Positions 31,170 to 35,515 of a DNA stretch of 55,760 bases are shown here, one piece after another (positions within the stretch are counted from its first letter, which is position 1; each line of letters starts with the position of its first letter). The translations under genes were made by a program, and so were the position numbers. The notes beneath the pieces were generated by a model that was not told the DNA's origin, did no database searches, and saw nothing but the letters and a program-made list of their open reading frames with translations. The DNA lies in contig JAETNQ010000024.1 in NCBI GenBank assembly GCA_021772075.1, positions 1 to 55,760 on the forward strand, read 5' to 3'. The stretch is from Lachnospiraceae bacterium (lineage in GTDB: Bacteria > Bacillota > Clostridia > Lachnospirales > Lachnospiraceae).

Positions 31170-31361
31170 TTATACGTTTGCAATCCTCTCCATCAGCACG
31201 TCTGCGTCGAGCCCATGCACCATAGCCGCTTCTTCCAGCGTTTCCCCTTGTGCCGAGGGACAGCCGAGGCAATGCATCCCTATCTCCATAAGCACCGGGG
31301 CAATATCCGGATTAATCCTCAGCGCCTCGCCGATTGTTGTATTTTTAGTGATCTCTGCCAT
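31170..31361 (-). CDS. DUF1858 domain protein
   Basis: This 63-residue protein starts at [16 protein letters not shown], where AAAGGAGG lies upstream; a 29-residue extension lacks such a site. It is a full-length DUF1858 domain with the conserved [21 protein letters not shown] segment, given here as two overlapping motifs GMHCLGCP and [10 protein letters not shown]. The two cysteines suggest metal or redox-centre binding. Relatives occur in anaerobes as stand-alone proteins or fused to hybrid-cluster and related proteins. Its exact function is unknown. Confidence 0.88.
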
Positions 31362-31527
31362 ATCTAAACCTCCTTTTGTATGAAGTATTCCCATATTTTC
31401 CAACGGAAAAACTGATACCAGTATAATACTTTCTCCATTTTGTTTCAAGTCATTCCTTTCTTTCTATCCGGGATTTGTATATGTATCTGTTCCATTTTTT
31501 AATTAACAGACAAAGGCAGAATCCGGC

Positions 31528-32002: not shown

Positions 32003-34042
32003 ATGAGACCAGAATGGAAAGATTTTGTAGGCGGCAAATGGGAAAATGAAGTCAACGTACGTGATTTCATCCAGAGAAACTATCATCCTTATGACGGGGA
32101 TGAATCCTTTTTAGCAGCGCCTACACAGAACACAAAAGACTTATGGAACATGGTACTCGACTTGCAGAAGAAAGAGCGTGAGGCAGGCGGCGTTCTCGAT
32201 ATGGACACCAAAGTAGTTTCCACGATTACTTCCCATGGCCCTGGCTATCTGGACAAGAGCAAAGAAACGATCGTAGGCTTCCAGACAGACGCTCCTTTCA
32301 AACGTTCCTTGCAGCCCTACGGCGGTATCCGTATGGCAGAGAAAGCTTGCTCCGATAACGGCTACGAAGTAGACCCTGAGATCAGCGAGTTTTTCTCCAC
32401 ACACAGAAAAACGCACAATGCAGGCTGCTTTGACGCTTACAACCAGGAAATGAGAGCTTGCCGTTCCTCCCATATCATCACAGGTCTTCCGGATGCTTAT
32501 GGCCGCGGACGTATCATCGGCGACTACAGACGTGTAGCTCTGTACGGTATCGATTACCTGATCCAGGACAAACAGGCTCAGAAAGATTCCACCGGACGCG
32601 TTATGACAGATGAAGTAATCCGTCTCCGTGAAGAACTTTCCGAGCAGATGATAGCTCTTAAAATGATGAAGGAAATGGCTGCTTCCTATGGCTGCGATAT
32701 CTCCAAACCGGCTACCAACGTAAAAGAAGCAATCCAGGCTACTTACTTCGGATACCTCTGCGCAGTAAAGGAGCAGAACGGCGCGGCTATGTCCCTGGGA
32801 CGTACATCTACTTTCATCGACTGCTACGCAGAAAGAGACTTGGCAAACGGAACTTTCACAGAAGAACAGATCCAGGAATTCGTAGACCACTTCATTATGA
32901 AACTGCGCTGCATCAAATTTGCACGTACGCCGGAATACAACCAGATTTTTGCCGGCGATCCGGTATGGGTAACAGAATCCCTCGGCGGCGTCGGCGTGGA
33001 CGGACGTCATATGGTAACAAAGACTTCCTTCCGCTATCTGCACACACTGACAAACTTAGGACCTTCTCCGGAACCGAACTTAACTGTTCTCTGGTCCACA
33101 AGGCTTCCTGAAAACTGGAAGAGATACTGCGCGAAGATGTCCATCCAGACTTCTTCCATCCAGTACGAAAACGACGACCTTATGAGAGTAACCCATGGCG
33201 ACGACTATGGTATCGCATGCTGCGTATCCTCCATGGTAATCGGCAAGGAAATGCAGTTCTTCGGCGCACGCGCTAACGTTGCAAAATGTCTGCTTTACGC
33301 TCTGAACGGCGGCGTGGACGAAGTAACAAAGAAACAGGTAGGACCGAAGTACCGTCCTGTTACAGGCGATGTGCTTGACTATGACGATGTATGGAGCAAA
33401 TTCATGGATATGCTTGAATGGCAGGCGGACGTATATGTAAATACTCTGAATATCATTCATTACATGCATGACAAATACTGCTATGAAAGAGCTGAGATGG
33501 CGCTTCATGACAGAGATGTAAAACGTTACTTTGCAACGGGCGTTGCAGGACTTTCCATCGTAGCTGACTCCCTGTCCGCTATCAAATATGCGAAAGTTGA
33601 AGTTGTCAGAGACGAAGACGGCGTTATCGTAGACTTCAAGACAACCGGCGAATTCCCGAAATACGGCAACGACGACGACCGGGTTGACTCCATTGCACAG
33701 GAAGTCGTACACAGATTCATGACCGCTATCAGAAGACACCATACCTACAGGGAAGGCATTCCTACCACCTCTATCCTTACCATTACTTCCAACGTAACCT
33801 ACGGTAAGGCTACAGGAAACACGCCCGACGGACGTAAGAAAGGACAGCCTTTCGCACCCGGCGCTAACCCGATGCACGGACGCGATACCCACGGCGCAGT
33901 AGCATCCTTATCTTCCGTATCCAAGCTTCCGTTCAAAGATGCTCAGGATGGTATCTCCAATACCTTCACGATCATCCCCGGCGCTCTTGGAAAAGAAGAC
34001 CAGGTATTTGCAGGCGACCTTGAACTCGACTTGAACAAATAA
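32003..34042 (+). CDS. pflB: Pyruvate formate-lyase catalytic chain lacking the glycyl-radical domain
   Basis: This 679-residue protein is clearly pyruvate formate-lyase, which converts pyruvate and CoA to acetyl-CoA and formate. The paired active-site cysteines Cys406-Cys407 are in GIACCVSSM, and the C-terminal [15 protein letters not shown] matches other PFLs. It then stops at DLELDLNK. Full-length PFL (760 residues in E. coli) continues about 80 residues into the radical-bearing RVSGYA segment, which is encoded by a separate gene at 34347. The two lengths add to 759. The stop is followed by a new ribosome site, so this is an organised split rather than a frameshift. It probably works as a two- or three-part enzyme. 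Confidence 0.95.
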
Positions 34043-34071
34043 TTTTCCACAAGGAATAACGAGGGTTTTCT

Positions 34072-34275
34072 ATGGACGATAATAAAATGATCGACGATCT
34101 CGTTAAAATGTTGGACTCCGGCATGACGCAGGGTGTAGGTCATATCAACGTGGATACGGATAATTCTATGGAAGAATCCAAAAACGTTCAGACTATGGGA
34201 TGCACAGACTGCTCCAGAACCCCGTTAGCATGCAGCGTTCCTACATTGGAACAGGGCTTGGACGATTACCACTAA
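34072..34275 (+). CDS. Small cysteine-containing relative of the glycyl-domain N-terminus
   Basis: This 67-residue protein lies between the PFL catalytic chain and the radical domain, 29 bases after the former, with its own GAGGG site. Its first 27 residues ([22 protein letters not shown]) align with the start of the downstream glycyl-radical protein ([22 protein letters not shown]), so it looks like a partial duplicate. In place of RVSGYA it has a tail with Cys44, Cys47 and Cys54 in [12 protein letters not shown]. It cannot carry the radical. It may occupy the same dock on PFL as a placeholder, chaperone or redox/metal regulator; this is inference. Confidence 0.85.
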
Positions 34276-34282
34276 TTCAAAC

Positions 34283-34314
34283 GGCTGCGGCTCCTATCCT
34301 GCTTTGCCACAGCC
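34283..34314 (+). other. Intercistronic stem-loop before the radical-domain gene
   Basis: GGCTGCGG (34283-34290) pairs with CCACAGCC (34307-34314), with one mismatch, between the second and third genes of the operon. It has no T run and may affect RNA processing or stability and so the ratio of radical domain to catalytic chain. Confidence 0.5.
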
Positions 34315-34346
34315 TGCCAATAAAGATTTTAAGGAGGAAACTTACC

Positions 34347-34589
34347 ATGGCAACAAGTTCAGCACAGGTTGATAACCTTGTAAACTTATTAGATGGATAC
34401 GCAACAAAAGGCGGCCATCACCTTAACGTTAATGTTTTAAACAGGGATATGCTTCTGGATGCCCAGAAACATCCTGAGAACTATCCGCAGCTCACAATCC
34501 GCGTATCCGGATATGCCGTAAACTTCATCAAACTGACACCGGAACAGCAGGCGGATGTTATTTCCCGTACTTTCCATGAATCGATCTAA
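34347..34589 (+). CDS. Stand-alone glycyl-radical domain of pyruvate formate-lyase (GrcA-like)
   Basis: This 80-residue protein starts at ATG 34347 with AAGGAGG 9 bases upstream. It is the missing C-terminus of [27 protein letters not shown], then [11 protein letters not shown] with the radical glycine Gly55, and the usual end [15 protein letters not shown]. coli makes a comparable free protein, GrcA/YfiD, as a spare part for oxygen-cleaved PFL. Here the catalytic chain itself lacks this domain, so the protein would be essential for activity. Pfl activase encoded nearby should install the radical. A terminator follows. Confidence 0.95.
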
Positions 34590-34765: not shown

Positions 34766-35515
34766 ATGCAAGGAAGAATACATTCATTAGAAAGCTTCGG
34801 AACCGTAGACGGCCCCGGCACCCGGTTTGTCGTCTTCGTACAGGGATGTCCCATGCGCTGTGCTTATTGCCATAATCCCGATACATGGCCTATGGACGGC
34901 GGCACACTGATGGAGCCGGAGGAAATTTTTGAACAATACAGGCGCAATCAGCCTTTTTATAAAACCGGAGGAATTACCGTGACCGGCGGCGAACCCCTTA
35001 TGCAGGTCGATTTCCTTATTGATTTATTCACGATCGCCAAAAAGGAAAATGTCCATACTTGCATCGACACGTCCGGCATCGCTTATAAACCGCAGAATAC
35101 GGAGTGGATCAAAAAGCTGGATCGCTTGATGTCCTTAACCGACCTCGTGATGCTCGATATCAAACATATCGACCCGCAAAAGCATCAGGAATTGACATCC
35201 CAGCCTAACGACGGCATATTGGCCTTTGCCTCTTACCTCAATGAAAAGCAAGTGGATATGTGGATTCGCCACGTCGTTGTCCCGGGCATAACCGATGACG
35301 ATAAATATCTTTTTGAACTGGGATATTTTATCGGGCAGTTTAACAATCTCAAAGCCATCGACGTGCTTCCCTACCATACCATGGGAGAGACCAAATATGA
35401 AAAACTGGGAATAACTTACAAACTTGCCGGAGTTCCCGCTATGGACAAGGAAAAGGTGGTGGCCAAAAAGCAGGTAATCCTGGACGGCATCAAAAAACGC
35501 CGCAGCGAAGCCTGA
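34766..35515 (+). CDS. pflA: Pyruvate formate-lyase activating enzyme
   Basis: This 249-residue radical-SAM enzyme installs the glycyl radical on PFL. The start is the second ATG, 9 bases after AAAGGAG; the first ATG abuts it. The cluster motif CPMRCAYC gives Cys28, Cys32 and Cys35, with the SAM-binding VTGGEPLMQ downstream and DIKHIDPQKH near the middle. Here its substrate should be the separate 80-residue glycyl-radical protein, alone or docked to the catalytic chain. Length is normal for PflA. A ferredoxin gene follows after about 150 bases. Confidence 0.95.
   Translation: MQGRIHSLESFGTVDGPGTRFVVFVQGCPMRCAYCHNPDTWPMDGGTLMEPEEIFEQYRRNQPFYKTGGITVTGGEPLMQVDFLIDLFTIAKKENVHTCIDTSGIAYKPQNTEWIKKLDRLMSLTDLVMLDIKHIDPQKHQELTSQPNDGILAFASYLNEKQVDMWIRHVVVPGITDDDKYLFELGYFIGQFNNLKAIDVLPYHTMGETKYEKLGITYKLAGVPAMDKEKVVAKKQVILDGIKKRRSEA

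Follow-up and report, generated by a model that had tools for sequence, protein, structure and literature searches.

The pyruvate formate-lyase (PFL) of the Lachnospiraceae bacterium studied here is encoded in separate parts, and the split PFLs examined are accompanied by a third, cysteine-bearing element, which is either a small separate protein (Mid) or a cysteine-bearing tail on the core chain. The locus lies within a 55,760-nucleotide stretch of DNA that was analysed as a whole (hereafter the window). The third element is what is new, being undescribed in the literature that we found. Our preferred reading, to which we assign a probability of roughly 60%, is that of an obligately split PFL composed of a core, a stand-alone glycyl radical subunit (GrcA), the cysteine element (Mid in the window, a core tail elsewhere) and an activase, with Mid or the tail acting as a placeholder or loading element. 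Gut fermenters rely on PFL, an enzyme that oxygen destroys, as a main route for converting pyruvate into acetyl-CoA and formate. More than a third of the genera sampled from this family run PFL as separable parts with the undescribed cysteine element, and this bears on the protection or restart of central metabolism in strict gut anaerobes following oxygen. The split enzyme also offers a natural system for the recognition and activation of a stand-alone radical domain, as opposed to the artificially cut E. coli enzyme.

The catalytic core chain of the window scores 1097.4 bits against the TIGR01255 profile (cut-off 994.2), its best stretch covering profile positions 2-666 (to 670) of 744. Core residues 4-670 align with residues 10-682 of E. 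coli PFL (PDB 1h16). The radical glycine domain is absent from the core chain and is encoded by a separate gene, and residues 8-79 of the resulting GrcA align with residues 682-758 of the E. coli enzyme. Therefore, the break falls just ahead of the first helix and strand of the radical domain. GrcA contains no cysteines, and its score of 160.5 bits with the NF038360 profile (GrcA3; cut-off 158) identifies it as a stand-alone radical domain. An earlier note on this DNA had described the 679-residue chain with its active-site cysteine pair, the radical glycine on an 80-residue protein, a combined length of 759 residues (the same as the E. coli chain 1h16) and good ribosome sites, and each of these descriptions was borne out. 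Shine-Dalgarno-like sequences stand upstream of every gene (AGGAGG for the core, GAGGG for Mid and AAGGAGG for grcA). The same note had taken grcA to be the next gene after the core and thereby overlooked Mid, which intervenes. Core, Mid and GrcA are read in three different frames and 58 of 150 genera share the layout, on which grounds a frameshift or an assembly error was rejected.

Table 1. Positions of the split PFL locus and its surroundings in the window
Feature	Position	Strand	Basis or remark
Small CxxC protein upstream of the core gene	31170-31448	-	Opposite strand to the core gene; presumably of DUF1858 type
pflB core chain, 679 aa	32003-34042	+	TIGR01255 match; active-site Cys pair
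Adjacent active-site pair Cys406-Cys407 of the core (codons)	33218-33223	+
Mid, 67-codon gene	34072-34275	+	GrcA-like docking segment (about residues 2-32), then cysteine tail
Mid cysteine motif (Cys44, Cys47, Ala53-Cys54, Pro57)	34201-34242	+	Alignment of 30 relatives
grcA3, 80-aa radical subunit	34347-34589	+	NF038360
Radical glycine Gly55 of GrcA, in RVSGYA (codon)	34509-34511	+
pflA, PFL-activating radical SAM enzyme	34757 or 34766 to 35515	+	TIGR02493, 299 bits (cut-off 232)

The source genome is a draft of 3.48 Mb in 103 contigs with an estimated completeness of 99.95%. The earlier note had asked whether a full-length pflB lies elsewhere in this genome, and a profile search that included PF02901 found none in the draft. 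PF02901 recognised two proteins, namely the core of the window and an 855-residue protein on contig C62. The latter is a PFL2-3/dehydratase-type glycyl radical enzyme with an adjoining radical SAM gene. In total, the genome encodes a single PFL core, two radical domains that stand alone and, beyond these, the glycyl radical enzyme on C62. A decayed copy beside a full-length PFL was rejected for this near-complete draft because no intact PFL was found.

The second radical domain of the source genome belongs to an orphan grcA on contig C102 (L003:1498-1737), which is flanked by opposite-strand genes; its product has 79 residues, the last 76 of which are identical to the operon copy at 74 positions. 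Second strong stand-alone grcA copies were also present in eight other split genomes among the matches listed. Repair of oxygen damage through subunit exchange, as suggested in the earlier note, is conceivable, and the orphan copy would be compatible with it.

The distribution of the split was surveyed in 150 genomes of the source's family, one per genus code, by a TIGR01255 search. Matches were sorted by hand into split cores, which end at profile positions 663-677, and full-length chains, which reach the model end; two split cores run to positions 700 and 704 only by way of stop codons. Split cores were found in 58 of the 150 genera and full-length PFLs in 59 genomes (63 genes), with both forms in three genomes, while the other genomes contained fragments, other glycyl radical enzymes or no match. 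Two of the genomes counted as split (G060 and G129) have cores cut by a contig end, and without them there are 112 genomes (56 split and 56 full-length only), which is the number above the TIGR01255 cut-off. Among the matches listed, a stand-alone GrcA3, defined as an open frame of at most 141 residues, was present in 58 of 58 split genomes versus 0 of 56 full-length-only genomes. Two genomes with broken PFL contigs (G022 and G128) likewise contain a stand-alone GrcA together with Mid. From this partition, the GrcA of split cores looks like an obligate subunit and not a spare part. The comparison with GrcA/YfiD offered in the earlier note consequently fits poorly; a YfiD-like spare part would be expected beside a one-chain PFL to repair, and none was found in the source genome.

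Beyond the family, a search of 291 genomes of the class identified split cores in a few other families, from which G300, G344 and G436 were retrieved, and stand-alone GrcA-like frames in further genomes (for example G202, G229, G254, G256, G257 and G353). A phylum search of 249 genomes yielded two that pass the GrcA3 cut-off, the source genome and a second genome from its family. Split PFL looks to be mainly a trait of the source genome's family. Median dN/dS values of 0.041 for the core and 0.037 for GrcA (sampled pairs, up to 150) correspond to strong purifying selection. Judged by sequence comparison, the split PFL is real and conserved and its cores are paired with stand-alone GrcA, and we consider it very probable that the parts make up a working enzyme. 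The earlier note was thus right to call the split natural and free of frameshift or decay, and its question of whether homologous loci conserve the arrangement is answered by the 58 genera, as the split is not peculiar to the source genome.

Analysis of the Mid gene pointed to a relationship with GrcA. An hhalign comparison matched Mid residues 2-32 to the start of GrcA over 31 columns (E 1.2e-7, probability 94 percent), and 26 of 30 Mid members match GrcA3 in NCBIfam at E values up to 1 (best 8.6e-7). The Mid of the window itself reaches 15 bits against GrcA3 (cut-off 158) as a weak match at its N-terminus. The radical glycine loop that marks the GrcA family (RVxGY) is absent from Mid, in which the GrcA-like part is confined to about residues 2-32. 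No Pfam family matched the Mid members better than E 0.09, and a search of the PDB found no Mid-like chain, the best match being at chance level (E 0.61). Neither Pfam nor NCBIfam has a family dedicated to Mid. In the alignment, which consists of the 30 relatives given loci, Asp15, Gly23, His24, Cys47, Ala53, Cys54 and Pro57 are invariant and Cys44 is kept in 24, the tail motif around the two invariant cysteines being DC..AC.[VI]P. Mid looks like a GrcA relative that retains the docking helix and strand, with the radical loop absent and a cysteine tail in addition.

Mid relatives were detected in 39 of the 150 genera by a single-sequence search, and the closest relatives in named records are from Lachnospiraceae (97 percent in the case of Lachnospiraceae bacterium 28-4). 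Purifying selection acts on Mid, with a median dN/dS of about 0.075 (89 usable pairs, in which synonymous changes are close to saturation). A GTDB genome scan with the Mid alignment returned 467 encoding stretches. The best 80 of these 467 were picked by Mid, which makes them uninformative on the frequency of Mid among split cores; the order core-Mid-GrcA was present in 78 of them, and the contig ends ahead of the core in the other two. Within the same best 80, 70 loci have a pflA-like ORF downstream on the same strand, at a distance from grcA of at most 300 bases in 49 loci and of 479 to 4325 bases in 21.

To relate Mid to split cores, we used 60 split loci chosen by the core alone, comprising 57 from the family (all split genomes except the source's) and three from other families. 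Mid was called when a profile match ran from position 6 or earlier to position 45 or later with more than 40 bits. Mid accompanied a cysteine-free core tail in 35 loci, 23 loci had a tail cysteine and no Mid, two had neither and none had both (Fisher p 1.3e-14, relatedness ignored). In the two genomes with neither, Mid is encoded on another contig, as a full match in G002 (93.9 bits) and a divergent one in G130 (25.8 bits). Each of the 60 split loci is accordingly accompanied by a third, cysteine-bearing element, which lies beside the core or on it in 58 cases and elsewhere in the genome in two, so that the two-gene unit of the earlier note has to be extended. Mid follows grcA in one locus (L224). 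This order, together with the Mid genes on another contig, implies that tight co-expression is not required.

Core tails that bear cysteines in the absence of Mid often display the same motif, as in RIEECGNQACNIPNIMESIDNE (L166) and GCGDMACKVPTLHKGIDDD (L175). Cores that adjoin Mid have tails free of cysteine, GDIELDLNK being one example, and the C-terminal tail of the window's core likewise has zero cysteines. When compared with a profile of the Mid tail, 14 of the 23 core tails scored higher than 99 or more of their own 100 shuffled versions. The other nine (seven DCAC.EP forms, L196 and L223) were not clearly Mid-like by this test; therefore, the tails need not all be one element. By sequence, some core tails carry clearly the same motif as Mid and others are cysteine-bearing only. 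One-chain PFLs of the same family sample have a cysteine-free junction in 61 of 63 cases, the exceptions being a cysteine-rich junction insert in L022 and a single junction cysteine in L264. That the split cores examined come with a cysteine element, and that Mid is akin to the start of GrcA, is established at this level of comparison, and we hold it to be quite probable that the element is a real third part of the enzyme. The one-chain PFL L022 (G096:C26) groups among split cores on the tree, and its insert, VNDTPDVTCGCEEVTCAVDAND, falls precisely on the split junction.

A tree of 122 cores, from which two partial cores were omitted and whose root was placed on the one-chain L016, gathers all split cores in one clade (SH-aLRT 99) that also includes five one-chain PFLs. 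An AU test did not reject (p 0.192) a topology in which every one-chain PFL lies on one side, and we therefore make no claim of re-fusion. On an earlier tree of 72 rows, in which G002 and G130, whose Mid is unlinked, were scored as having Mid, the Mid and tail layouts require nine changes among split cores. Three independent pairs are available on well-supported branches of that tree; all three run in the expected direction, and they are too few for significance (sign test p 0.25). The exclusivity of Mid and tail rests on few independent switches.

Comparison with known systems places the split enzyme close to E. coli PflB in its parts, with a PFLA-family activase adjoining the locus of the window. 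It differs in its division, as E. coli PflB is a single chain of 759 residues. To our knowledge, no junction cysteine element is known in E. coli PflB. Small cysteine-bearing Fe-S subunits accompany benzylsuccinate synthase and 4-hydroxyphenylacetate decarboxylase, and in these enzymes the radical glycine stays in the large chain. A subunit of this Fe-S type would be expected to have at least four conserved cysteines in its chain. Mid differs from these subunits as a relative of GrcA with two invariant cysteines across 30 members and a third in 24. GrcA/YfiD shares with the radical subunit of the window the stand-alone RVSGYA domain, and the latter aligns with the stand-alone radical cofactor structure 6owr. 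However, E. coli YfiD has 127 residues as against 80 and, according to PMC8683613, repairs an oxygen-cut one-chain PFL, the kind of enzyme of which the search found none in the source genome. Pseudomonas aeruginosa has another radical enzyme that is naturally encoded in pieces, a split class II ribonucleotide reductase (PMC4520616), but this is a different enzyme and not a case of a glycyl radical domain on a chain of its own.

Two PDB chains deposited as 'Formate acetyltransferase', 38la_A (687 residues) and 38lb_A (739 residues), are PFL cores that were unmatched by a GrcA query. Both apparently lack the radical domain and are possibly split-type cores by their sequences; a GrcA query of the PDB found no GrcA chain in either entry. 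In 38lb, cysteines (GECDMC) occur soon after ALGK, near the point where split cores end. Our search of the openly licensed PMC literature found no description of a natural split PFL or of Mid, which may be described elsewhere, and no paper using the term GrcA3; neither GrcA nor YfiD is mentioned in the available parts of PMC11528403 and PMC13252398. Split-type proteins are known to annotators, as the NCBIfam entry GrcA3 illustrates, and probably to the depositors of 38la and 38lb.

In an obligately split PFL, the core would supply the substrate site and Cys406-Cys407, and the small exchangeable GrcA would supply the radical glycine. PFL-AE would load the radical onto GrcA seated in the core, and the core-GrcA pair would then cleave pyruvate as a one-chain PFL does. 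The helix and strand with which GrcA would complete the barrel of the core appear to be present in Mid as well, the glycine loop being absent. Mid may occupy the vacant radical-domain site of the core, where its conserved cysteines could shield or redox-lock the active-site thiols (a thiol guard or redox latch) until GrcA displaces it once conditions permit activation. Alternatively or additionally, Mid or the tail might help to load GrcA. This placeholder mechanism is put forward tentatively, as a plausible scheme to which we give somewhat less than even odds.

Work on the cut E. coli enzyme bears on the empty site. According to PMC8683613, YfiD binding to PFL cut to residue 695 is undetectable by calorimetry and the glycyl radical on YfiD is 32-fold lower with PFL cut at 695 than at 734. 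The recognition element proposed there spans residues 696-733 and takes in strand 10, and YfiD is said to bring its own copy of strand 10. The core of the window stops ahead of strand 10. Natural split cores are without the 696-733 stretch, so it could have been replaced by something else. As a relative of the helix and strand without the glycine loop, Mid resembles the stump of an oxygen-cut PFL. Since the tail form places a cysteine element at the same junction, this resemblance suggests that the element may be a stand-in for the empty site. Tethered core-Mid-GrcA and core-Mid predictions (L082 read through stops) gave pLDDT values of 40.3 and 43.2, too low to be informative; the sequences allowed were probably too alike. 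Short Mid and GrcA rows were misplaced when mixed into the alignment and were left out.

The placeholder idea could be widened to swappable plugs that complete the active site and are exchanged for on, off and protected states, with the thiol tail as a redox gate. GrcA would then act as the live plug, bearing the radical glycine, and Mid would be a dummy with the same docking strand and a thiol tail, the tail being borne by the core or by a separate dummy plug depending on lineage. We regard this wider scheme as possible but doubtful.

Several other roles for the cysteine element were weighed against that of a placeholder or loading element. A mobile thiol could quench the enzyme by giving a hydrogen atom to the glycyl radical, which would bring about a safe resting state before oxygen cuts GrcA. 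Thiols are able to quench the PFL radical, and the Fe-S small subunit of 4-hydroxyphenylacetate decarboxylase has been linked to radical loss. Such a function would agree with the two cysteines that are invariant in 30 of 30 Mids, with at least one cysteine in each of the 23 core tails and none in the GrcA of the window, and with the position of the tail cysteines at the junction, the point from which the radical domain would extend. However, a single thiol would be enough and Mid conserves two, and the GrcA-like docking segment suggests that Mid occupies the same site instead of approaching a filled one; we consider a quencher unlikely. The cysteines might otherwise bind zinc or an Fe-S cluster in a structural or sensing site. 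Class III ribonucleotide reductase, which has a zinc site close to its radical loop, offers a parallel, and so do other glycyl radical enzymes with their small Fe-S subunits. While CxxC plus a further cysteine in 24 of 30 Mids and the CACC or CC clusters of some core tails favour a metal, the invariance is limited to Cys47 and Cys54 and Cys44 is missing in six of 30. Each chain would offer too few ligands for a typical four-cysteine site, to which a partner chain could contribute, and metal binding seems to us as improbable as quenching.

Recruitment of the PFL-activating enzyme to the core-GrcA pair, with no role for Mid or the tail at the active site, is decidedly unlikely. Of the 63 one-chain PFLs, which use the same activase class, 61 have no such cysteine junction, and recruitment leaves the conserved cysteines unexplained. 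It would nevertheless account for the pflA-like ORF downstream in 70 of the best 80 of 467 Mid loci and for an 80-residue GrcA without the long N-terminus that, according to PMC8683613, aids YfiD binding and activation in E. coli. The N-terminus akin to GrcA and the absent radical glycine loop are also what a functionless, dying grcA duplicate would display. This explanation is disfavoured as highly improbable, given a dN/dS of about 0.075, the invariant Cys47, Ala53, Cys54 and Pro57, the occurrence of Mid in 39 of 150 genera and the core-tail cysteines in the 23 loci without Mid. An obligately split PFL with Mid or the tail as a placeholder or loading element therefore remains our preferred reading.

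Two variants of small proteins were observed alongside these results. Mid stops directly after the CxxC, without the second conserved cysteine, in L178 (G012) and L186 (G026). Another small-protein family of about 65-90 residues (L294, L295, L297, L298 and, on contig C68 of the source genome, L303:1438-1695) combines a weakly Mid-like N-terminus with a C-terminal YHHGRCD[VI]GSP motif; two members searched had no Pfam match and no meaningful NCBIfam match. In the source genome, the L303 gene lies directly upstream of an ORF that we take to be MetF-like.
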